64,000 bases of DNA from Eubacteriaceae bacterium CHKCI004 (GTDB lineage: Bacteria > Bacillota > Clostridia > Lachnospirales > Lachnospiraceae): contig FCNR01000025.1 of NCBI GenBank assembly GCA_900016875.1, positions 62,001 to 126,000 on the forward strand. Reading direction: 5' to 3'. Both the position numbers and the translations under genes were made by a program. Positions 42,262 to 61,354 of this stretch are shown here, piece after piece (position 1 is the stretch's first letter; every line of letters begins with the position of its first letter). A model generated the notes under the pieces. The model did no database searches. It was not told where the DNA came from and was given only the letters and a program-made list of their open reading frames with translations.

Positions 42262-45200
42262 ATGAACAAATTAAAATTTAAGTTAAAACGGATGTTGTCT
42301 TTCTTTACAACATTTGTTTTAGCAATGTCTACAATAACCACAGCAGTAACACCTATGACCGTGTATGCTGCAAGTACAGTAAAAGATGTTAGTATTAGTA
42401 GATTAGACAAAGCAGTAACCCAGGGTTATGGTCATTTTAATCTTGAATCTGATTCTTCTGGGTATGAGGTTGAATACTCTAAAAATCTTACCAAAGCAAA
42501 GAAGACAGGAGATAAAGATTGGATTTGGGAAGATAGAGATCAAGGTAGTAGTAATTCTATTAAAAATCTTGGAAATGCTTATATCTCAAGTTTAGAAAGT
42601 GGAGAGAATTATTGGATTCAGTACAATGGAATTCAAATGTTTGATAATGATGGTCGACCACTAGGTACCTATGACGTTCGTGCTGTTTTCAATAATCCAA
42701 AAGGTGCTATCAGTGGTGCTGATGGAAAAGATATCGCTGTATTTGACGGACAGTTGGGCGCAGTTAGATTTCGTGGATACAAGAGTTTAGACTGTGCTAT
42801 TTACATCTATGAGCACGGTACAAAAAATCTGGTAAGTGGTGACCCTGGTAAGATGCACCTGAGATTTATCGATATCGACTGTAATCAGGCAATTGAAATC
42901 TTAACTCCAGGTCGTGTTGATTGGGCTTACAGAGGTAAAAAGATTTCTTGGGCAGGAGATTCTAAATGTAATGCAATCGGTGCTACTCAAGGCAACACAG
43001 TATGGTTTGATGGTGATCATGATGAACCAGATAATAATATTCAATCCACAAATAAAGATCAATATAACAGCGCTAAAAAATACACCTTTACATTAGGTTT
43101 CACGCCTCCTTCAGGTGCAGAAAATACCTTTAAGGTTCGCTACTACGCAGGTGGTGTTAATTCCGCAGGTGGAACTGGTTCTCAGAAAAACGGTGCTTTC
43201 TTTAGCTTTGATGGAAACTTAGATTTCCCAGACCCTGATGAAAAATTCTTCGATGCATCTTTAAGCAAACAGGTAAATGGCACAACAGATGCTACTTTAG
43301 CCAACGCTAAAGAAAATTTTACCTACACACTGAATGCAACAATCGCAGATGGCTCAACTGGAGCAAAAGCATTCACAGTTACTGATACTTTAGAATCAGT
43401 TCTTCAGCCAGTATCTGTTACCTCTATTACAAAAGGTGGTGCAGATGTATCTGGTAATTTTGATGTAAGCATTAATGGACAAACTGTAACGGTAAGCGCA
43501 AAGAGTACCTACCTTGCAACTAACCCTACAGGAACAATTTCTATTAATGTTGCAGCCAAAATCAGAGATGGTGCTAACTTAAGCAGTTACAAACAGGGTG
43601 ACTATTTTGTAATTCCTAACAAGAGTTACCTGTCTTACACAGACAGCGAAGATGACACAATGAGTTCTGAGTCAAACACTGTTACCGTCAAAGTACCTCT
43701 CGCAGAGTTAACTTTAGACAAGGTAGCAGATAAGTATGAGTACAAAGTAGGCGACACAGTTACCTACACGATCTCAACAAAGAACGTAACAGCTAATGCA
43801 ACTGCTTATGATGTTGTTGTTACAGATTCTATTCCATCTGATCTTAAAGTGACAAATGTTACACCGAGCAAAGGTTCTGCTTCTGTAGATGGACAGAACA
43901 TCAGAGTAAGTGGTGCTGATTTAGCCTACAACGAAACCCTGACTATTAAAGTAACTTGTACAGCTTTAGAATCAGGAAACACAAAAGAGCTTTACAATAC
44001 AGCACAGAGCACATGTTGGAATATCAAAAATTCTGGTGGTCATGCAGATGACGATGCTGAGACTTATATCAATACAGCTAAATTAGCAGTAGATAAAACA
44101 GTCGATAAGTATGAGTATGAAATTGGCGACAAAGCTACATTTACCATCAAAGTAAGCAACAGCGTAGGTCTTGGAAATAATGTAGTGATTACAGATAATG
44201 TGCCAGAAGGCATGACTTTAGACTACGATTCTGTTAAGATTTCTGGTCTGCCAGCAAGTGTTTCAAGACACATTGCAGGTACAGTTGACCCAACAAATCA
44301 GCTGAATCCAGATAAAAGAAATGAAACAGAAGTAAGTAACATTACAGCAGAAAAGGCTAAAAGCGGAGATAATGGTTTCAAATACACAATCAATTATTTC
44401 CCAGCAGGTGCTACTGCAACCATTACCTACACAGCAACAGCCAATGAAAAAGGCAATGGTAAAGAAAGCCAGAACGTTGTAACAGTAACAGCAGATAATG
44501 CACAGAAGGTACAGGATGATGCTGAGTTCTATATCAACACTGCAAAACTGACAATTGACAAGAAGTACATCAATCCTTACAAGGATGAAAAGAAAGATAA
44601 TCGTTGTGATAACGAATTCCGTATTTACGAAGAAGAGACTGGATTTGAGAAAGTTCAGTATCAGGTTGTAGTAAAGAGTGCTGGTGATGACGGTACAGTT
44701 GCAAAAAATGTGGTGATTGATGATGTGACTTTACCAGAAGGTTTAGCACTGAATTATGGAGATATTGTAATTACCGAAACAGCAGCAGACGGAACTGTTA
44801 AAACTTTTGAAAAGGCATCCGGCGGAAATGGTACTACCTTCAAATACAAAGTTGCAGGTACTGCAGATGAGACCAATAAGCTGAATCCAGAAATCTACAA
44901 TGAGACAGAAGACCGTACACCAGAAATCACAATTGAAAAATCTGGCAACGGATTCATTGTAAGAGATACCTATTTAGAGAAAGGTGCATACCTTACAATT
45001 AAGTATGATGCCAATGCACTGGAAAATGATGAGGTTGATGTTAACGGTACAGAAATTACCAATACAGCAACAGCAACAGCTGACAATTTAGACAAGGACG
45101 ATAGTGGTAAAAACGTTGTAGTTAAAGATGATACTACCGTTTACATTAACTCCCCACGTCTTAAAATTGTTAAAACAGCAGATTCCGATGAGTATGAGAT

Positions 45201-48200
45201 TGGTGACAACGTATCCTACACAATCGATGTAATCAACACACATGTAGGTACAATCGCACGTAATCTTGTTTTCACTGATGTATTGCAGACACCTGGTGCA
45301 GAATTCTTGACAGGTACGATCGAGTTATACGACACAGATGGTTATACCCTTCGTGAAGGAACCGATTTGGCCGGAGAAGATGATTATACGAAGACAGCGA
45401 AAGTCGATGCATTTATCCTGCGTTCCGATAAGCACCTTGTGGTGGATGGCAATTATGATCTCTATGACCTGGGAAACGGCAAAAATCCGGAGGAACAGGG
45501 AACCTGGAACCCGCCATATGTGAATGTCACCAGTGAGACAAAAATGTCCATCAAATATGACATGAAGATCACGGATAAAGACATGGCAGGGAAGGAAATC
45601 TTGAATACTACGACCGCGGTATCTGACGAGGCATTAGAAGTTACAACGGATGAGACAGTGATTCCAGACGGCCCGAACCCGAAAGTAGAAAAAGAGATCG
45701 ACAATGCTTCCCCGGTAGTCGGGAAAGACGTGACGTTCACCCTGACATTTACCAATCAAAACCAGAATACCACCGCAGAAGATGTGCAGATCATGGATTC
45801 CCTGGATCAGACTGGGATGGTCACCATCTATGCGGATTCCATGTCTGTGAAGCTGAATGATGAAGATGTTACGGAACAGGTACAGATCTCTTATAATGAG
45901 ACGATGGATGGATTTGACATGGATACCGGTCTTGACCTGACCGAAGACGATACCCTCGTTGTCACATACCGGGCAAAGGTGCTGCCGGAAGCCGGGGATG
46001 TGGAACTTATGAATACTGCTGGTGTGAGCTGCAGTAACAACCCGGAGTGGAAGTATGATAGTGTGCCGTTTATCCCGGAGAAAAAGGTGCCGAAACTGGC
46101 CATCGAAAAGACCTCTGATAAAGATGTCTATCAAGTAGGGGACACTGGACACTATGCCGTCACCGTTACCCAGACCACAGAAGACATGACTGCAAAGCAG
46201 GTCGTGATCAAAGATGCGCTGCAAGTAGAAGGCGCAAAAATACAGGTGGATACCATTAAGCTGTATTTTAACGATGTGGAGATTACACCGGCGAATATCA
46301 CTTCAGACGTAAATGGCTATACCATAAAGACAGGGAAAGACTTGACCGATAAGGACAGCCTGAAAGTCACTTATGATGTATACTTTGAATCCGGACGTCT
46401 TAATGGCCAGACCGTACCAAACACAGCAAAAGCGAAGGCACAAAATACAGAAGTAGAGACGGACCGGGAAGTACCGCTCACACTAGTAGGAGATGGTTTA
46501 GAAGCCAAAAAAGAGGCGGACCCAGCAGGCGGCACCGTTGTAAAAGCAGGAGATACCATCCAGTATACCATCACAGTGAAAAACACCTCTGATACAGAAA
46601 AAACGAATGTCCTTGTCCGTGATGCCATTCCAGATTTAACAACTTATGTAGAGGGAAGTGGCGGGGAATTGTTCACAATCGACGAACAGCCGTATGTCCG
46701 GTTTGTCATCCCGGCGATTGCCGCAGGCGAGGCACAGCAGGTTTCTTTTAGCGTAACGGGTAATGAAGGAGCGACGGAAGATGATGTCATCCGCAATACG
46801 GCACAGGTCTATGGACCGACAGCAGAAGAAGTCGGGGAAGATGGAACGATTCCGGAAGAAACCTGGAGCAGTGATAAGTTTGAGGATACCAACACTATCA
46901 CCCATCCACTGGATGACTGGGTCATCACTGACCACGAAGTCGATGTGGTATCCCCGACATTGGCCATCGAAAAGACCTCGGATAAAGACGTCTATCAGGT
47001 AGGGGAGACCGGACACTATACGGTCACTGTCACCCAGACGAAAGAAGATCTCACCGCAAAACAAATTGTAGTCAAAGATGATCTGCAGGCAGATGGCGCT
47101 GAGATCCAGCCGGATACCATCAAAGTATATTTCAACGATACAGAGATCACACCAATCTCTGTAACTGCAGATGCCAAAGGCTATCGGATCGAGACAGGCA
47201 TGGACCTTTCTGACAGTGACATCCTCACAGTAAATTACGATGTATCATTTGTATCGGAAAGCCTGATGGATGGTACTGTACCAAACACGGCAAAAGCAAA
47301 GGCCGATAATGCCTATGCAGAGACCGACCATGAAGTACCACTGATCCCGGTGGGAGATGATCTCTCTGCCAAAAAAGAAGCAGACCCGGTGAGCGGCACA
47401 GTTGTGGAAGCTGGCGAGACGATCCAGTATACCATTACTGTGAAAAACACATCCGACAAAGAAAAAAACAATATCCTCGTCCGTGATGCTGTCCCGGAAT
47501 TCACTACTTATGAGGAAGGTAGTGGCGGAGAAGTATTTATGATTGGGGAACAGCCGTATGTCCGCTTTGTTATCCCGTCTATCGCTGCCGGGGCGGAGCA
47601 GAAAGTTTCCTTCTCCGTGACCGTAAAGGAAGATGTCGATAAGGATGAAGTCATCAAAAACGTGGCACAGGTCTACGTGCCGACAGAGGACGAAGTAGGG
47701 GAAGACGGCACCATTCCGGAAGAAGTATGGAGCAGCGACAGATTCCACGATACGAATACAACTCTTCATCCACTGGACAACTGGGTCGTGACAGAACACG
47801 AAGTTGGTGTGGGAACCCCGGATGTGTCCATCGAAAAGAAAGCAGATGCTACCGTATATTCCGTTGGAGAGACGATCCAGTATACGATTGTCGTCAGCCA
47901 GGATACCGAAGGGGCAACAGTGACCAATGCCATCGTGGAAGATAAAGACTTAACAAAAGGCGTAGACATTGATTATACTTCTATCAAAGTCGATGATGCA
48001 GCCGTACCGGAAAAGGATGAGGTGGAGATGGATGCCGATACGGTCCATATGGTACGCACGGATGGCGGATTTCGAGTGGTATATCCGACTTTGTCTGGCC
48101 AGTCTGAGATTACATTTCATGCGACTGTCACCAGTGAAGACCTGACCGGACAGAAGATTCACAATACAGCAACGGTCATCACAGATCAAACGCCGGAAAA

Positions 48201-48423
48201 AGAGGCGACCGTCACCGTCAAGGTACCAAAATCCCCACTGGAGAAAGTGGTGGAGAAAACATTTCATCCAGATGGAGCTTCGTCTAAAGAGGATGATGAG
48301 GGAACAAGCGGCCCGAAAGGAGCAAAGACGGGTGTCATCAGTTATGCCGGATGGTTCGCACTGGCAGCAGCAGCCTTTGGCGGAACTGGAGTCTTCCTTA
48401 TCCGGAGAAGACGAAAAAAATAA
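42262..48423 (+). CDS. giant wall-anchored adhesin with DUF11-like isopeptide/Ig repeats
   Basis: The 2053-residue surface protein has a signal peptide (about residues 1-37, ending TVYAAS), an N-terminal domain to about residue 330, and about ten DUF11-like repeats. Each repeat starts with a pattern such as LAIEKTSDKDVYQVGDTG or LTLDKVADKYEYKVGDTV and contains Y.(I/V).V.NT...A..V...D. A C-terminal tail follows with GAKTG, a hydrophobic helix (YAGWFALAAAAFGGTGVFLI) and RRRRKK, a sorting-signal layout with a non-LPXTG motif. It probably promotes mating-pair contact or host adhesion, fixed by the element's class B sortase. Base composition shifts near 45.3 kb, and two 288-residue blocks are tandem copies. 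The ATG follows AAGGAGAGTAGGAG. Confidence 0.88.
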   Translation: MNKLKFKLKRMLSFFTTFVLAMSTITTAVTPMTVYAASTVKDVSISRLDKAVTQGYGHFNLESDSSGYEVEYSKNLTKAKKTGDKDWIWEDRDQGSSNSIKNLGNAYISSLESGENYWIQYNGIQMFDNDGRPLGTYDVRAVFNNPKGAISGADGKDIAVFDGQLGAVRFRGYKSLDCAIYIYEHGTKNLVSGDPGKMHLRFIDIDCNQAIEILTPGRVDWAYRGKKISWAGDSKCNAIGATQGNTVWFDGDHDEPDNNIQSTNKDQYNSAKKYTFTLGFTPPSGAENTFKVRYYAGGVNSAGGTGSQKNGAFFSFDGNLDFPDPDEKFFDASLSKQVNGTTDATLANAKENFTYTLNATIADGSTGAKAFTVTDTLESVLQPVSVTSITKGGADVSGNFDVSINGQTVTVSAKSTYLATNPTGTISINVAAKIRDGANLSSYKQGDYFVIPNKSYLSYTDSEDDTMSSESNTVTVKVPLAELTLDKVADKYEYKVGDTVTYTISTKNVTANATAYDVVVTDSIPSDLKVTNVTPSKGSASVDGQNIRVSGADLAYNETLTIKVTCTALESGNTKELYNTAQSTCWNIKNSGGHADDDAETYINTAKLAVDKTVDKYEYEIGDKATFTIKVSNSVGLGNNVVITDNVPEGMTLDYDSVKISGLPASVSRHIAGTVDPTNQLNPDKRNETEVSNITAEKAKSGDNGFKYTINYFPAGATATITYTATANEKGNGKESQNVVTVTADNAQKVQDDAEFYINTAKLTIDKKYINPYKDEKKDNRCDNEFRIYEEETGFEKVQYQVVVKSAGDDGTVAKNVVIDDVTLPEGLALNYGDIVITETAADGTVKTFEKASGGNGTTFKYKVAGTADETNKLNPEIYNETEDRTPEITIEKSGNGFIVRDTYLEKGAYLTIKYDANALENDEVDVNGTEITNTATATADNLDKDDSGKNVVVKDDTTVYINSPRLKIVKTADSDEYEIGDNVSYTIDVINTHVGTIARNLVFTDVLQTPGAEFLTGTIELYDTDGYTLREGTDLAGEDDYTKTAKVDAFILRSDKHLVVDGNYDLYDLGNGKNPEEQGTWNPPYVNVTSETKMSIKYDMKITDKDMAGKEILNTTTAVSDEALEVTTDETVIPDGPNPKVEKEIDNASPVVGKDVTFTLTFTNQNQNTTAEDVQIMDSLDQTGMVTIYADSMSVKLNDEDVTEQVQISYNETMDGFDMDTGLDLTEDDTLVVTYRAKVLPEAGDVELMNTAGVSCSNNPEWKYDSVPFIPEKKVPKLAIEKTSDKDVYQVGDTGHYAVTVTQTTEDMTAKQVVIKDALQVEGAKIQVDTIKLYFNDVEITPANITSDVNGYTIKTGKDLTDKDSLKVTYDVYFESGRLNGQTVPNTAKAKAQNTEVETDREVPLTLVGDGLEAKKEADPAGGTVVKAGDTIQYTITVKNTSDTEKTNVLVRDAIPDLTTYVEGSGGELFTIDEQPYVRFVIPAIAAGEAQQVSFSVTGNEGATEDDVIRNTAQVYGPTAEEVGEDGTIPEETWSSDKFEDTNTITHPLDDWVITDHEVDVVSPTLAIEKTSDKDVYQVGETGHYTVTVTQTKEDLTAKQIVVKDDLQADGAEIQPDTIKVYFNDTEITPISVTADAKGYRIETGMDLSDSDILTVNYDVSFVSESLMDGTVPNTAKAKADNAYAETDHEVPLIPVGDDLSAKKEADPVSGTVVEAGETIQYTITVKNTSDKEKNNILVRDAVPEFTTYEEGSGGEVFMIGEQPYVRFVIPSIAAGAEQKVSFSVTVKEDVDKDEVIKNVAQVYVPTEDEVGEDGTIPEEVWSSDRFHDTNTTLHPLDNWVVTEHEVGVGTPDVSIEKKADATVYSVGETIQYTIVVSQDTEGATVTNAIVEDKDLTKGVDIDYTSIKVDDAAVPEKDEVEMDADTVHMVRTDGGFRVVYPTLSGQSEITFHATVTSEDLTGQKIHNTATVITDQTPEKEATVTVKVPKSPLEKVVEKTFHPDGASSKEDDEGTSGPKGAKTGVISYAGWFALAAAAFGGTGVFLIRRRRKK

Positions 48424-52061: not shown

Positions 52062-52448
52062 ATGAAGATTGATATTAACGAGGATTTTGAAGCCGTTTTT
52101 CAAAATGAGATCTTTGCCGGTTTTACCTCACGCCAGTGTATATGTGCGGGCATCGGCCTGTTGGCAGGATTGGGTACGATGGTAGCTTTGTGGCATTATA
52201 CCGGTATGCCTGTCGTACAGTGCAGTTATGTGATGGTGCCGGTGATGGTTCCATTTTGCGCGGTTGGTTTTTTCACATATCAGGGCCAGTCTCCCCTGCA
52301 GTTGTTAAAAGCCATATGGTATGTCCGGCAAACCGCACGACTGACGTATCAGGCGGCAGAACGGCAGGAGACAATGGGCAGAGTCTTTACCATGAAAAGG
52401 ACTCTGCCAAAAAAGCAGAAAAGGAGGAAGGACGATGGCCATATTTAA
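52062..52448 (+). CDS. prgI: PrgI family (VirB3-like) conjugation protein
   Basis: The 128-residue protein begins MKIDINEDFEAVFQNEIFAGFTSRQCIC, the PrgI family start, with two membrane helices (about residues 29-48 and 55-73). In type IV systems VirB3 proteins partner the VirB4 ATPase, whose gene overlaps this one by 14 nt. The ATG at 52062 follows AAGGAGGAG; the frame's earlier start at 52005 lies within the upstream gene. Confidence 0.85.
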   Translation: MKIDINEDFEAVFQNEIFAGFTSRQCICAGIGLLAGLGTMVALWHYTGMPVVQCSYVMVPVMVPFCAVGFFTYQGQSPLQLLKAIWYVRQTARLTYQAAERQETMGRVFTMKRTLPKKQKRRKDDGHI

Positions 52449-55086
52449 TGCGGACATCCGGTTCCGGGAACAGAAGCGGATGAGCCTGCCGATTGTCAAA
52501 GTTCCGAAGAATGTCCGGGAAGCGTTTCATATCGACACCCTTTTTGCAAATGGGATTGCCAAACTGGAAAAAGGGAAAAAAAACTGTCTGTATGACCGTT
52601 GTTACTTATTGGAGGAGATCAATTATATCAACAAGGATGACGGGGAAAAGACCCGGTTTTTAAATCAGTTCATGGGATGGTTAAAGGCGATGAACGTTGA
52701 TTTTAAGATAACTGTGGCAAACGAATTTCAAAGTGCGTTTGATTTTATCAAAAAATATCGGTCAAATAAAAATAAGGACAAATATCCGGAAGCAGAAGAA
52801 GGCGTTCGGGAATGGATCGAAGAGAAGATGGGAGAATCCAATCCCAATGTAACGACATATCGGTATCTGACCGTTTCCTGCCGGGCAGAGACCCAGACAG
52901 AGGCAATGATCCTGTTAAACAGCATTGATACGGTCATCCACGATATGTTCCGGATGTGGAGGGGCCAGGTCATGCGGCTGTCTGCCAGGGAAAGACTGCT
53001 TTGTCTCCATTCCCTGCTCCGCCCCGGCCGGATGGACGAAGAAGCATATCTGTCCTACGGAAAAGGCCATGACTGGAAAAATGATATCCTGCCCCGGAAG
53101 GTCCGCCAGAAAACAAATTTCCTTGTCCTGGATGAAACCTATATATCCGTCTTGTTCGGGCATAAATACCGGGGAGCCATAGATGCGGACAGCTTTGTCC
53201 GCAGCTTTTCCCATATGGAATTTCCATCCTATCTCACGCTGGATTATGCTCCGGTTGCCCCAGACATCATCGAAGATAAACTGGGGGCGGCATCCATGAA
53301 TAATGAACGGGCGATCAGTAATGAAGAAGAGAAAAAGAGAAAGAGGAACATGATCTCTACCGGGCCGTCTTACCGTCTGCAAAAACGAAAAGAAAGTATT
53401 GAGGAGTATACCGACCAGATCAATGACAATGATGAGACCGGTTTTTTTGTCAACTTTTTGTTGGTCGTCACCGCTCCGGATGAGGAGACGCTGTCCGAGC
53501 GTGTCGGCCAGATGGAAGCCATCGGGCGCAAAGAAGGGGTATCCATCGAGACGGCAGACTGGAATCAGTTAAAAGCGCTGAATACCGCCTTGCCATATGG
53601 AGGGCGCCAGGTGGATTATATGCGCTTTTTTCTGTCTTCTTCTGTTGTCGCATTGCAGCCATATTATGCACAGGATGTCATCGACCTGGGCGGGTATTTT
53701 ATGGGGATCAACCGGACGACAAAACGGCTGATCTTTGGTAACCGCAAATTATTGAAAAACCCCCACGGCATCATCATCGGCCATACCGGTTCCGGAAAAT
53801 CGGTCATCATCAAGCTGACAGAAATCCTGCAGTCCCTGATCGCGACGGATGATGATGTTTTGATCCTGGACCCACAGAATGAATTTGAAGCGGTCATCCG
53901 GATGCTGGGTGGAGCCTATTTTGATCTGACGCCAAAGAGCGGAATGAACTTAAATGGCTTTGAAGTGACAGAAGAAGTCTTTTATGCGGATAAAAGGACA
54001 AAAGAAAAATTTGTGGCGACCCAGACCGCCTATGCCAAAAGTCTCGTAGCTGCCACCATGAATAACATCCTGTTTACACAGGAACATGCCACTTATGTGA
54101 GCCGGGCGACTGGAATCATGTACGAAAAGATATTCGCACAAAAGAGACTGAAAAAACAGCCGACATTAAAGATGCTCCGGGAAGAGATCGATACGATCTT
54201 GTCCGGAGAGGCCGGACAGGACAGCCATAACCGGGAAATCTTACAGACCATCGATAACTGTCTGGAAGAATACACAGAAGGGAGCTGTGATATGCTGGCC
54301 CATCCATCCACCATCCGGCTGGATAACCGGCTGGTGGGATTTGGACTTAAGAATGTGCCGGAAGATAACTGGGAGGCGGTGATGCTGACGGTGATGCATT
54401 ACACATCATCCCGTATCGAATATAATCAATCCCTGCAAAGGGCGGTCCATTTCGTTGTAGATGAGACCCAGGTCATCTGCCAGAAGGGGACCTCAGCGGC
54501 GCAGCTCAACACAGCGGTTACGACTTATCGGAAATTTGGTGGGATCTGTACCATGTCGATGCAGAACCTGACCGCGGCGCTCCACGATGAAAAACTGACA
54601 GAGTTATTTAGTAACTGCGATTATAAATGCTTTCTCGATCAAGGTGGTGTGGATGCCAATGCCTTGCGGGAGATTCAGGAGTTGTCGCAGACAGAGTTCG
54701 ACGCACTAAACGCGGAAGGGTACGGACAGGGTGTCATGGTCTGGGGGAAAAAGGTTGTCTTGTTTGATATGCGGATATCCAAGGATAATCCCTTGTATCC
54801 ATTGATATCAACGAATTTCCATGAGAAAGCGGCAAAGGCAGTCGAACAACAAGTAAAAGAGCAAGACAGCAAAGCCCCAGAAGAGGCCGCCTATACGGAA
54901 ACCAGCCGGACGGAGCAGATCATCTTGCAGATGGCGGATTTTGCGGAAATCAGTGCGAGGGATATTTTATCTGTACTGGATATTTCGCAAGATGAGGCGG
55001 AACTGCAGTTATCTTATCTTGTTGAGAAGGGCAAGCTTTTGGAGATCCAGACAGAGGGTATCACAAAATATAAGAAGGCGGGGTGA
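52435..55086 (+). CDS. virB4: VirB4/TraE-type conjugation ATPase
   Basis: The 883-residue protein has an N-terminal adaptor domain, Walker A GHTGSGKSVI near residue 448, Walker B DVLILDPQNEF near 473, the downstream VDETQVIC segment and MSMQNLTAAL. It is the energy unit of the type IV secretion channel. A winged-helix-like C-terminal extension (about residues 820-883, DFAEISARDILSVLDISQDEAELQLSYLVEKG) is unusual for core VirB4 but seen in Firmicute ICE versions. Start overlaps prgI by 14 nt. Confidence 0.93.
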   Translation: MAIFNADIRFREQKRMSLPIVKVPKNVREAFHIDTLFANGIAKLEKGKKNCLYDRCYLLEEINYINKDDGEKTRFLNQFMGWLKAMNVDFKITVANEFQSAFDFIKKYRSNKNKDKYPEAEEGVREWIEEKMGESNPNVTTYRYLTVSCRAETQTEAMILLNSIDTVIHDMFRMWRGQVMRLSARERLLCLHSLLRPGRMDEEAYLSYGKGHDWKNDILPRKVRQKTNFLVLDETYISVLFGHKYRGAIDADSFVRSFSHMEFPSYLTLDYAPVAPDIIEDKLGAASMNNERAISNEEEKKRKRNMISTGPSYRLQKRKESIEEYTDQINDNDETGFFVNFLLVVTAPDEETLSERVGQMEAIGRKEGVSIETADWNQLKALNTALPYGGRQVDYMRFFLSSSVVALQPYYAQDVIDLGGYFMGINRTTKRLIFGNRKLLKNPHGIIIGHTGSGKSVIIKLTEILQSLIATDDDVLILDPQNEFEAVIRMLGGAYFDLTPKSGMNLNGFEVTEEVFYADKRTKEKFVATQTAYAKSLVAATMNNILFTQEHATYVSRATGIMYEKIFAQKRLKKQPTLKMLREEIDTILSGEAGQDSHNREILQTIDNCLEEYTEGSCDMLAHPSTIRLDNRLVGFGLKNVPEDNWEAVMLTVMHYTSSRIEYNQSLQRAVHFVVDETQVICQKGTSAAQLNTAVTTYRKFGGICTMSMQNLTAALHDEKLTELFSNCDYKCFLDQGGVDANALREIQELSQTEFDALNAEGYGQGVMVWGKKVVLFDMRISKDNPLYPLISTNFHEKAAKAVEQQVKEQDSKAPEEAAYTETSRTEQIILQMADFAEISARDILSVLDISQDEAELQLSYLVEKGKLLEIQTEGITKYKKAG

Positions 55087-58420: not shown

Positions 58421-58732
58421 ATGATGGACAAAGAAGATCTTATTTTTGAATCGGAGAAATATTTTCTAAATCTGATGAAAGAGAGTAAGACCAGTCTTTA
58501 TATCCGGGCAGGGGAGATCGACTGTAAAAAGAATTTCTTCCAGCATTTGAAAGACAAAGAAGATGTATTGGGGGAGGGGACTTATCTGGGACTGGTCTCT
58601 GACGCGGCAGACCGTTTTTATCTTTTCTTTTTAGAAAAGTATGAAAAAAAGCTGCAGGATCTGTATGACAGGGCTGCCGCAGAGTGGATGCAGGATGTGT
58701 TTTACCGAGGCGTCTTGGCCGCTGGAAAATGA
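58421..58732 (+). CDS. small helical protein preceding oriT
   Basis: The 103-residue product is charged and helical (KYFLNLMKES, FYLFFLEKYEKKLQDLYDRA) without membrane segments. The ATG at 58421 has GAAGGTGAG upstream; a GTG at 58415 is in the same frame. Last gene before the oriT-like region. Function unknown. Confidence 0.5.
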   Translation: MMDKEDLIFESEKYFLNLMKESKTSLYIRAGEIDCKKNFFQHLKDKEDVLGEGTYLGLVSDAADRFYLFFLEKYEKKLQDLYDRAAAEWMQDVFYRGVLAAGK

Positions 58733-58753
58733 GATTTTGTGGAAAACGGGGTC

Positions 58754-58970
58754 TCAGGGGTGTCCCCTGACAAGAGGCATTTGTATATACAAAATGCGTA
58801 TCTTGCAAAAAGCCTGCGGCTTTTTATGTCATAGCAGAGGCGGTGAAAGACCAAAACCGGTAGGGATTTACCGTAACTGGTAGCAAAAGAATACCGGAAA
58901 TGGTTGGAAATCCTACCAGGGCTGGTATCCATTTACCAGAATTGGTATCCCAAACAGAGCGAAAATGGTA
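58754..58970 (+). other. oriT-like region: inverted repeats, nic-like site and phased GGTA/TACC array
   Basis: Three parts lie in order. TCAGGGG-TGT-CCCCTGA (58754-58770) is a perfect hairpin. GCATTTGTATATACAAAATGC (58777-58797) is a near-perfect inverted repeat, followed at once by GTATCTTGC (58798-58806), close to the IncP/MOBP nic consensus YATCCTG/Y. Then GGTA and TACC alternate at 58859, 58869, 58879, 58892, 58902 (GGTT), 58914, 58924, 58934, 58944 and 58967, mostly 10 bp apart. Genes for a small DNA-binding protein, MobC and a MOBP-type relaxase follow directly. Confidence 0.7.
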
Positions 58971-58994
58971 GGAAAACGGAGAGGAGGGAAAGGG

Positions 58995-59246
58995 ATGGCG
59001 GTGCAGAAACATTTCCGACTGCCGGAAGACGTGGTGGAAAAGATTGCAAGCAGGGACAGGGGAAAATATCCGACAGAAAACAGCTATGTCAGTATGGCAA
59101 TCCGGAAATTTTCGGTTTATGAGGAACAGGAAGAAATCCGAAAAGAGCTGTTGGAAATCCGGAACAGAGTGGAGGAAATCCATGTGTTTTGCAGAAATGG
59201 TTTTTCTGCAGACAGTGATATTTATGGGAAAAATTTTTCATACTAA
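58995..59246 (+). CDS. small DNA-binding protein, probable oriT auxiliary factor
   Basis: The 83-residue protein starts MAVQKHFRLPEDVVEKIASRD, a short beta strand then helices as in ribbon-helix-helix proteins (MobC/TraY/Arc type), with TENSYVSMAIRKFSVYEEQEE as the second helix pair. AGGAGGGAAAGGG precedes the ATG at 58995. It lies immediately right of the phased GGTA/TACC array, which is its most likely binding site. Such proteins bend oriT and recruit relaxase. Confidence 0.65.
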   Translation: MAVQKHFRLPEDVVEKIASRDRGKYPTENSYVSMAIRKFSVYEEQEEIRKELLEIRNRVEEIHVFCRNGFSADSDIYGKNFSY

Positions 59247-59308
59247 TGAGTACACGGCTAGTCATGGAAAAAGATTTTATTTTTGATGGATAGATGGAGG
59301 TGGAACTT

Positions 59309-59638
59309 ATGGACTGGCAGGAACAGATCATCCGGCTGGAGGAAAGATTGTATAAGATTACAGAAAAAAAGAAAAAAATCTTAGAGGAAGAAAAGGAAGT
59401 ACTGGAAAAACTCAAGGAAATCAAAAAGAAAAAGGAGGAAGAAGAAAACCGGAAACTGGCGGACATGGTGCAGGAACAGCTGGGAGAAATGAGTGAGCAA
59501 AAGATGGAAGCGTTAAAGAATTTCCTGATGCAGCACGCGGGGGAGATCCAGGGAAATATAGAAAGTTTTGAGGAAAAGTCACAGGAAAATAAAAAGGAAA
59601 GGAGGGAGGACCACTGGGCAGGGACCGGACATTTTTGA
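59309..59638 (+). CDS. coiled-coil mobilisation-operon protein
   Basis: The 109-residue product is a Glu/Lys-rich coiled coil (about residues 1-55, heptads IIRLEERLYKITEKKKKIL) followed by a helical tail with MEALKNFLMQHAGEI. The layout resembles DUF4315-type small proteins near ICE relaxases. ATG 59309 follows GGAGGTGG; it overlaps the MobC frame. Function unknown. Confidence 0.5.
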   Translation: MDWQEQIIRLEERLYKITEKKKKILEEEKEVLEKLKEIKKKKEEEENRKLADMVQEQLGEMSEQKMEALKNFLMQHAGEIQGNIESFEEKSQENKKERREDHWAGTGHF

Positions 59639-59985
59639 TCCGTTTTACACAGGAGGAATATGAGCAGCTTTTCTATCTGGCAGGAAAAGACAGTGGGGCA
59701 GGGCATCAAAAAATGAAAGGGAAAAATGTATCTGCTTTTATCCGAAAATGTATTTTTGAGAAGACAGACAATCCTTTGGCCTTAAAAAAAGAAGTAAAGA
59801 ACTTAACGTATCAAGTGCGGAAAATTGGTGTCAATATCAATCAGGTGGTGACAAAAATCAACAGTGGATATGGCACCCCCTCAGATAGGAATCAGCTGTT
59901 TTTTTATCTCAAAAAAGTAGAAGAGGCATTTATCCAGTTGGAAAAAAGAATAGAAAAAACATATGGCAATCACAAAATTGAGTAA
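59614..59985 (+). CDS. mobC: MobC-type relaxosome protein
   Basis: The protein has the MobC pattern: IRFTQEEYEQLFYLAG at the start, then SAFIRKCIF and LTYQVRKIGVNINQVVTKIN. It assists relaxase at oriT. The frame is open from 59593 and has no ATG or GTG start. CTG at 59614 follows a strong GGAGGGAGG site by 5 nt and is taken here (123 residues); TTG at 59635 (116 residues) has no ribosome site. It overlaps the relaxase gene by 23 nt. Confidence 0.82.
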   Translation: MGRDRTFLIRFTQEEYEQLFYLAGKDSGAGHQKMKGKNVSAFIRKCIFEKTDNPLALKKEVKNLTYQVRKIGVNINQVVTKINSGYGTPSDRNQLFFYLKKVEEAFIQLEKRIEKTYGNHKIE

Positions 59986-61354
59986 CATCGGGATGCCAAA
60001 AGGCGGCGGAGCCGCTCACTTGAAAAATGCCATTGTCTATATCATGAACCCGGATAAGACAGAAAACGATGTGTGGATCGGCGGCAATGCTGGGAACACG
60101 CCGAGGGAAGTATACCAGACGATGTTGGATACAAAAAGAGAGTGGGGAAAAGAAGGCGGGCGCCAGGGATATCACTTTGTCATCTCCTTTCCACCGGGGG
60201 AAGCAACGGTACAACAAGCCTATGCGGTCATCCGTGACTTTTGCGAAGAATATCTGGGGGAAAATTATGATTACGTATTTGCTGTGCATACAGACCAGGC
60301 CCATATGCACGGTCATGTCATTTTTAATTCTGTGAACCGGATGAGCGGATATAAGTATCGTTATGAGAAAGGCGACTGGGAAACATGCATCCAGCCGATC
60401 ACAGACCGCATCTGTGAAAAGTATGGGCTGCCACCTCTTACTTATGAAAAGGAAGGAAAGAGGAAAGGAAAGACATATGCGGAGCATTTCGCAGAAAAAG
60501 AAGGAAGGCCGACAGAGACAAAGATCATCAAGGCAGACATGGACTATTTTATCAAGCGTGCAGTGAACTGGGAAGATTTTGTGGAACAGATGCAACGGTG
60601 TGGATACGAGATCCGGCAGAAAAAATATGTGACTTACAAAGCGCCGGGGTATGGAAACGGGCGTCGGGATTATCGGCTCGGGCCGGGATATACAAAAAAA
60701 GAGATCATCAGGAGGATTGCCCAAAAAGACAAGGAAATGCCAGGGAAGCCTTTGCTGTCCCCAAAACTTTTCCACAGATATCAGAGAGGATTGTCCCAGT
60801 ATCTTTCTCCCACTCTGTCCCCATACCAGATGAAAAAACTCCGGATTTTTTATCGGGCAGGCCGTTACTTAGAGGATAGAAATCCGTATCGCAGGGACCG
60901 GGCCGATGTCCGGAAACATGCTATCCATATCAATCAGCTTTATGAAGAATGCCGGTACATACTACAAAGCGGTATCAAAAATCCAGAAGATCTGCAGGAA
61001 CGTTTGCTGGAATTAAAAAAAGAAGAAAGCGTGTGGAAAAATCGACGCAGTACATCCGCGGCGGTCTATGACCAGGAGCTGGTGAAGAAATATCAGAAGA
61101 TGAAAAAAGAACTGGATTTCCTTCCGGCCTGGGACGACTGTTTTGAGACACTGCAGGAAGGATTGGCACAGCTGGAGCAGGAAATGCCGGAAAATTTTTT
61201 CACCGATTTTGCAAAAGAAAAAGAAAAGATCGATGCCAGCCTGCGGGACATCCGTAAAGAGAAAAGGCTGGTACAACGGATGCTGCAGGAAGGAGAGCAA
61301 AAGGAAAAAGAGAAAAAAACAGAGAAAGGGGTGGAGCATGGGCCAAAGAGGTAA
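59963..61354 (+). CDS. MOBP-type relaxase (relaxase/mobilisation nuclease domain)
   Basis: The 463-residue protein has an N-terminal relaxase domain with the metal-binding motif HTDQAHMHGHVIFN (histidines near residues 110, 115 and 117) and an N-terminal region containing NAIVYIMN, where the catalytic tyrosine is expected (Y26). The C-terminal half is helical and basic with a coiled coil. It nicks oriT and pilots the strand into the recipient. It shares an operon with mobC, and the oriT-like region lies 1 kb upstream. Confidence 0.9.
   Translation: MAITKLSNIGMPKGGGAAHLKNAIVYIMNPDKTENDVWIGGNAGNTPREVYQTMLDTKREWGKEGGRQGYHFVISFPPGEATVQQAYAVIRDFCEEYLGENYDYVFAVHTDQAHMHGHVIFNSVNRMSGYKYRYEKGDWETCIQPITDRICEKYGLPPLTYEKEGKRKGKTYAEHFAEKEGRPTETKIIKADMDYFIKRAVNWEDFVEQMQRCGYEIRQKKYVTYKAPGYGNGRRDYRLGPGYTKKEIIRRIAQKDKEMPGKPLLSPKLFHRYQRGLSQYLSPTLSPYQMKKLRIFYRAGRYLEDRNPYRRDRADVRKHAIHINQLYEECRYILQSGIKNPEDLQERLLELKKEESVWKNRRSTSAAVYDQELVKKYQKMKKELDFLPAWDDCFETLQEGLAQLEQEMPENFFTDFAKEKEKIDASLRDIRKEKRLVQRMLQEGEQKEKEKKTEKGVEHGPKR

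Follow-up and report, generated by a model that had tools for sequence, protein, structure and literature searches.

A phased array of short repeats between a putative transfer origin and a candidate ribbon-helix-helix gene in Tn1549-type conjugative elements

SmpO of the staphylococcal plasmid pWBG749 is a ribbon-helix-helix (RHH) protein encoded beside the origin of transfer (oriT). The sites of SmpO are described as setting oriT specificity, and a single N-terminal residue of the protein switches the oriT subtype that is used (PMC8136818). In the same source, TraM is said to bind four GANTC motifs cooperatively (PMC8136818). Plasmid pLS20 encodes two RHH proteins, Aux1 and Aux2, between oriT and the relaxase gene; Aux1 binds a fragment containing TGGTACCA, and one Aux1 site is reported (PMC5675868). 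On R388, the stbDRs are short repeats with an 11-bp pitch, belonging to an operon next to oriT and bound by StbA, the product of the adjacent gene (PMC3098194).

Here we describe an array of short repeats at positions 58849-58970 of the window (the whole stretch of 64,000 nucleotides that was analysed), located between an oriT-type core and a small gene that starts at 58995. The best reading, by analogy, is that the array works like the SmpO sites of the staphylococcal plasmids. We put the probability at roughly 0.7 that it is an oriT accessory array which is bound by the 58995 RHH protein, aids the relaxosome, sets oriT identity and probably takes part in autoregulation. The protein would bind TACC-N6-GGTA dyads, probably with one RHH dimer per half-site, and neighbouring dimers about one turn apart would lie roughly on one side of the DNA. 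An extended and presumably cooperative protein-DNA complex would then form about 40-165 bp from nic, help MobC and the relaxase to open and cut nic, and pass the complex to the VirD4 coupling protein. It would also give each element its own oriT identity, and binding would probably repress the row of genes that encodes the RHH protein, a coiled-coil protein, MobC and the relaxase.

The window resembles the pWBG749-family plasmids, with SmpO and ossA/ossB, in having a probable RHH gene beside a MOBP oriT, and that family also combines a conserved core with variable accessory sites, as was found here (PMC8136818, PMC4652767). They differ in that two binding sites 65-67 bp apart are described for pWBG749, whereas the GGTA arrays of our loci contain 3 to 9 phased dyads, and in that the core of the pWBG749 family is another one, CTTATGCTCTT. 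SmpO is likened to the 58995 protein by description and not by sequence.

The oriT-type core of the window consists of three hairpins at 58755-58825, before the array. When 58755-58835 was folded as single-stranded DNA, the fold z was -4.4 and none of 200 shuffles was equally stable. Hairpin 1 (58755-58769, plus strand), CAGGGG/CCCCTG, was predicted by the DNA fold and had paired changes at 2 of its 5 predicted pairs. The nic hairpin with the putative nic, ACAAGA-(GCATTT..AAATGC)-GTATCTTGC, follows at 58770-58806 (plus strand), with paired changes at 6 of 13 predicted pairs. Hairpin 3, AAAAAGCC-TGC-GGCTTTTT, was also predicted by the DNA fold and lies directly 3' of the putative nic at 58807-58825 (plus strand); a terminator scan gave no match at this hairpin. 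Among 22 of the 25 extracted cores, aligned without L078, L066 and L041, 8 of 18 predicted pairs had at least one sequence that was changed on both sides with the pair kept. The nic core was found in all loci of the close clade defined below (as ACAAGG in L215) and in more distant relatives. The middle part of the core resembles the inverted repeat and nic of MOBP origins, and the position of nic is taken from known MOBP oriTs. At the place of hairpin 3, a hairpin with other letters but with the pairing kept was seen by eye in L215, L062, L209, L065, L206 and L208, and no hairpin immediately 3' of the putative nic was seen by eye in L216 or L217. With this conserved nic-like core, and with MobC and a MOBP relaxase also encoded, the original prediction of an oriT-like region was borne out.

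The half-sites of the array start at 58859 (GGTA), 58869 (TACC), 58879 (GGTA), 58892 (TACC), 58902 (GGTT), 58914 (TACC), 58924 (GGTA), 58934 (TACC), 58944 (GGTA) and 58967 (GGTA). These words, their positions and their spacings (10, 10, 13, 10, 12, 10, 10, 10 and 23 bp) had been predicted exactly, and comprise nine GGTA or TACC words and one GGTT. The interval first proposed, 58754-58970, is right in its array part, but its start takes in the oriT core. We took the unit of the array as a 14-bp dyad, TACC-N6-GGTA, because the first and the last GGTA each have a left partner 10 bp ahead of them, GACC at 58849 and a weak GAGC at 58957. Five dyads and a half dyad result, with start-to-start distances of 20, 23, 22, 20 and 23 bp. 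Dyad 1 (58849-58862) is GACC-N6-GGTA, its left arm being one letter off TACC. From the word positions, dyad 2 (58869-58882) is TACC-N6-GGTA, dyad 3 (58892-58905) is TACC-N6-GGTT, and dyads 4 (58914-58927; inverted repeat I10) and 5 (58934-58947; repeats I10 and D7) are again TACC-N6-GGTA. Half dyad 6 (58957-58970) is GAGC-N6-GGTA, of which the right arm alone matches. The half-sites had been placed on one face of the DNA, and this holds only approximately, since, with two of the steps at 12 and 13 bp, the period that fits best is 10.9 bp (its resultant is 0.78, compared with 0.60 at 10.5 bp; the overlapping AACC at 58855 was also counted as a half-site in this fit).

The array is real and non-random. 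In 58840-58994, nine exact GGTA/TACC words were found against a mean of 2.0 in dinucleotide shuffles, and none of 5000 shuffles reached nine, in a count that used the word given in the original prediction. A chain test was also applied to 58807-58994, in which every 4-mer except single-letter runs was tried with steps of 9-13 or 20-24 bp. The longest chain had nine members, compared with a maximum of six in 3000 dinucleotide shuffles. Among 3191 overlapping stretches of the 64-kb window, chains of eight or nine occurred only over the array, and the best elsewhere was seven. A chance origin of the array was rejected on the word-count shuffles and the all-4-mer chain test. Counts of the commonest 5-mer and 6-mer, which were made without the control L063, gave mixed values (52 and 34 of 500 shuffles reached the count observed in the window) and A-rich words were common in the shuffles, so these counts were replaced by the lag and chain tests. 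Like the array, the oriT stretch of pLS20 contains a chain that is rare in shuffles (six AAAT, 8 of 500); pLS20 differs in its MOBL relaxase and in its core.

The array begins 43 bp past the end of the nic-like core (58806) and ends just before the RHH gene. It thus has the oriT core on one side and the ribosome-binding site of that gene on the other, a position in which it might act mainly as a transcription operator at which the RHH protein represses its own row (RHH, coiled-coil, mobC and relaxase genes), with a secondary role in transfer. MobC of RA3 is described as an RHH autorepressor encoded beside oriT (PMC4175270). The sole promoter-like match in 58700-59020, however, is at 58767-58795 and overlaps the oriT core, not the array. 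A terminator scan gave a single match, at 58873-58858 on the minus strand inside the array (0.4 expected). Simple operators usually need one or few sites, compared with the 3 to 9 dyads here, and we consider a mainly regulatory array unlikely. An operator role is compatible with an accessory array at oriT, and the two are not exclusive. Autorepression is a probable part of the accessory-array reading as well, given that the row starts directly downstream of the array.

The RHH gene (58995-59246, plus strand; start set from homologues) encodes 83 amino acids and is proposed to encode the array-binding protein. It is followed by a gene for a 114-amino-acid coiled-coil protein (59294-59638, plus strand), which was found with tblastn in L001, L044, L043 and L209; ORFs resembling it were seen by eye in L062, L214, L215 and L217, and it seems to be absent from L216, L077 and L078. 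Next come mobC (59635-59985, plus strand; PF19514 and PF05713 above cut-off), a relaxosome accessory gene, and the gene for a 463-amino-acid MOBP relaxase (59963-61354, plus strand; PF03432 Relaxase, E 6.9e-35), which also matched NF041893 TraI_MobP below the model cut-off. MobC is homologous to PcfF, which is encoded on pCF10 (probability 96, E 2e-9 when the MobC profile was aligned with PcfF by hhalign). A VirB4-type ATPase of the CD1110 family belonging to the same element (52435-55086, plus strand; NF045971, E 3.8e-128, above cut-off) is encoded upstream of the array along with PrgI, and a VirD4-type coupling protein (PF02534) just past the window end, at L207. From these genes, the element is probably an integrative conjugative element of the Tn1549/CD1110 type. 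Ahead of the transfer genes, a 2053-amino-acid protein is encoded at 42262-48423; it has a hydrophobic C-terminus and seven DUF11 repeats and is perhaps a surface adhesin.

In pCF10 the relaxase gene follows pcfF, as it follows mobC here. pCF10 differs in that the gene before pcfF is annotated LtrD, with no small gene in between, and in that the stretch before pcfF has no phased chain (383 of 500 shuffles). Tn1549 in pMG2200 (L199) is the same element type, and its relaxase is 35% identical over 252 amino acids. Its core, CCCCAACAAGC...TATGCTTGC by eye, and its relaxase gene are on opposite strands. In the window the two share a strand, and the elements may differ in the direction in which they enter the recipient. 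No array was seen by eye in 3440-3720 of L199, and no extra RHH gene is annotated there between the HTH gene and mobC.

Relaxase searches with a threshold of E 1e-60 gave relatives in 10 of 397 family genomes, and with a threshold of E 1e-75 in 7 of 24 genus genomes; the same query found no relative in the viral_contigs set. A core-pattern scan of viral_contigs was set aside as too loose, with at least 120 stretches. We defined the close clade by relaxase matches at E 1e-100 or better and examined 13 places, of which 12 are distinct: the window, L212, L213, L214, L215, L216, L217, L043, L062, L209, L077 and L078. L212 is the same place as L001, and L213 is the local duplicate of L044; duplicates were counted once. 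L209 was found by its core pattern, and the other relatives by the relaxase searches. The order nic core, array, small RHH gene, mobC and relaxase was present in all 12 distinct loci, window included (mobC was judged by eye in L214-L217, L077 and L078). In L215 the RHH and coiled-coil genes are separated by an additional helix-turn-helix regulator gene (675-1283).

The combination that marks the clade was incomplete in the six relaxase places that rank next (L201-L206; E 1e-60 to 1e-100). The core was present in L206, with no array signal in the lag and chain tests. L201-L205 did not match the core pattern; they have a mobC-type gene, and the 1.2 kb that precede mobC or the relaxase contained no extra small RHH-like ORF that could be recognised. 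When the chain test was run on the 500 bp preceding the same gene in L201-L205, 289, 8, 63, 299 and 5 of 300 shuffles, respectively, reached the observed chain; the chains that are rare in shuffles, in L202 and L205, are of the words AGAA and ACAC. The core was also present in L211. Of 39 regions that were picked by eye, 15 had a relaxase downstream (tblastn). The lag and chain tests were run without L051, L057 and L065, whose stretches were under 60 bp, and the array tests also excluded L208, L210, L066 and L041, which is truncated.

A repeat array beside oriT might instead be a partition or localisation site of the ParR/parC or StbA/stbDR type that serves the excised element. ParR is typically an RHH protein, and its repeat arrays differ between families (PMC9426499). 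In R388, StbA binds 9-bp repeats that are 2 nt apart and arranged in two sets of five, and it affects stability and transfer alike (PMC3098194). In the window, by contrast, none of 20 neighbouring proteins was ParM- or ParA-like in a Pfam scan, and in all 12 distinct loci the array lies beside the nic core with the RHH gene in a row leading to mobC and the relaxase. A partition site is therefore quite unlikely in our estimate. R388 differs from the present locus in its direct 9-bp repeats and in their plasmid-stability function, and StbA is likened to the 58995 protein by description, not by sequence (PMC3098194). It also provides a precedent for a long phased array near oriT, with ten repeats at an 11-bp pitch in an operon next to oriT, so the earlier suggestion that our array is more extended than the known oriT accessory sites is not supported as worded (PMC3098194). 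From the sequence comparisons, the array probably belongs to a known kind of relaxosome accessory array, of which the unusually long phased form and the variable letters would be new. In the titles and abstract openings of openly licensed literature, there was no report of the 58995 RHH family or of this array type in Tn1549-like elements.

The 58995 product matched no Pfam or NCBIfam family at E 0.1, and the Pfam Arc match was at E 0.11 only. When a profile of 12 homologues was compared with a profile of eight MobC proteins, the RHH regions were in register (probability 88, E 3.1e-6). The gene next to the array, which had been called a small putative RHH gene, thus probably encodes a distant RHH relative of MobC. 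The PHROGs models gave weak matches for the family, including Arc-like and regulator models. Among the best 60 of 81 matches of a PDB profile search, coiled-coil chains predominated and no RHH protein was recognised. Two structure predictions, both made from single sequences, were of limited confidence, and that of the 58995 protein had a mean pLDDT of 65 with no strand shown. With the 58995 protein as query, there was no match among plasmids and phages at E 1e-5, one relative in genome_contigs, and matches in 5 of 397 sampled family genomes, those in G349 being mobC-type genes. When the family was compared with single sequences using hhalign, no similarity was detected to PcfF (probability 1.2) or to Aux1 and Aux2 (probabilities 2.3 and 0.4), in which the locus differs from pCF10 and pLS20. 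Since the 58995 family matches the MobC RHH profile and MobC matches PcfF, we infer that the element encodes two RHH proteins. By analogy with PcfF, MobC would probably serve the repeat at nic, and we propose that the extra RHH protein serves the array.

A lack of the spacing pattern in homologous elements had been named as a refuting outcome; phased arrays were found in all 12 distinct clade loci, so that the spacing is conserved across the clade. The letters, as read by eye, are TACC/GGTA in the window, L212, L213, L214 (about nine dyads) and L215 (three dyads), TTCCC/GGGAA in L217, GTTC/GGAAC in L043, GTACAC-like in L216, AATAC in L062 and L209, and GTAAC/GCAAC in L077 and L078. In a scan from 8 to 14 bp, the best-fit half-site period was 10.3-11.3 bp in 12 of 12 arrays; the half-site words for these fits were chosen by eye and the probabilities are naive. 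The strongest direct-repeat lag was 20-23 or 42-45 bp in 11 arrays and 33-34 bp in L062. In the direct-repeat lag test, 0 or 1 of 200 shuffles reached the observed value in 11 of the 12 arrays; for L215 the number was 11 of 200, and 1 of 200 in the inverted-repeat test. The inverted-repeat signal was strong in the GGTA lineages and absent in L216, L077 and L078 (172, 200 and 179 of 200 shuffles). The chain test over all 4-mers gave at most 23 of 500 shuffles for 11 of the 12 arrays, with CATA and not GGTA as the best chain word in L215, and L216 failed it (476 of 500). Strict alternation of orientation, which the original prediction had emphasised, proved to be lineage-specific: the orientation alternates in the GGTA lineages and is constant in L062, L209, L077, L078 and L216.

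As controls we used seven loci with the core and without the extra RHH gene (L042, L053, L056, L067, L070, L206 and L040). In this order, 124, 0, 87, 7, 20, 102 and 0 of 200 shuffles reached the observed value in the direct-repeat test, and in the chain test the numbers were 63 to 500 of 500, with none of the seven below 63. L053 (GATATC-like) and L040 (GTATGT/ACATAC-like) have direct-repeat arrays beside the same core, and mobC was the only RHH gene seen in them. MobC may therefore bind arrays, and in the window, too, the protein on the array could be MobC, or else the relaxase or a host protein, instead of the 58995 product. The relaxase TraX of pAD1 is described as binding five direct repeats far from nic (PMC12857230). 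However, MobC here is a homologue of PcfF, which is described as binding inverted repeats at nic (PMC6514445), and the extra RHH gene accompanies the array in 12 of 12 distinct close-clade loci, which makes another binder distinctly improbable. A neutral tandem-repeat expansion with no bound protein, to which the 42-45 bp lags as signs of duplicated two-dyad blocks might point, has hardly any probability, because in the window and L214 the spacers vary around half-sites that are kept, and because the helical period is found again in arrays whose letters are unrelated.

If the 58995 family binds the arrays, as we propose, its contact residues may differ with the array letters. By analogy with Arc, we take residues 4, 6 and 8 of the RHH strand to contact the DNA. 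These residues are Q-H-R in the window, L213, L214 and L215 (GGTA lineages), D-H-R in L217 and L043 (GGGAA and GGAAC arrays), H-H-R in L216, R-Q-R in L077, and S-T-R and M-S-R in L062 and L209 (AATAC arrays). A phased GGTA/TACC array was present in 4 of 4 Q-H-R lineages and in 0 of 6 others, which have other phased words; L216 holds six GGTA/TACC words that are unphased. This pairing of Q-H-R with phased GGTA words is suggestive: a simple count that takes no account of descent puts it at 1 in 210. Shared descent could also account for it, since the four Q-H-R lineages are among the closest relatives. A Mantel test of array 5-mer content against contact residues was not significant (r 0.22, 249 of 2000 permutations), so we regard the pairing of array and protein as a lead and not as a result; after relaxase distance was removed, r was 0.01 (954 of 2000).

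The spacing is kept while the letters change in related elements, so the array may set which transfer start is recognised. A tentative extension, to which we give clearly less than even odds, is that the clade has a diversifying docking code at oriT, in which the core is fixed, the letters track the RHH strand residues, the pitch stays at about two and four turns, and the array serves as an identity tag against cross-mobilisation. Such a tag would keep sibling elements in one cell from mobilising each other, and the genome of the window, with two such elements whose GGTA arrays have 10-bp and 9-bp arm spacing, would be a test case. In our searches, gut bacteria of the same genus and family as the window carried elements of this clade. 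If the accessory-array reading is right, these loci would reveal a relaxosome RHH family without a curated model in the searched libraries and with long helically phased arrays, and would offer a natural series of, by our reading, about six site types paired with proteins. RHH DNA specificity and oriT identity could then be read from sequence, which would aid the finding of transfer origins in unstudied gut conjugative elements and predict which mobilisable elements ride on which.

Two of the loci add to the range of arrays. L041 (contig C42 of G077) has at 1046-1150 the core and a further array type, GTCA/TGAC, and the contig ends beyond it. The second clade element in the genome of the window (G000) is at 1030-1300 of contig C44 (L044), with a relaxase that is 72% identical. 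The arms of its GGTA array are 9 bp apart, compared with 10 bp in the window, and the two elements form a natural pair for cross-talk.
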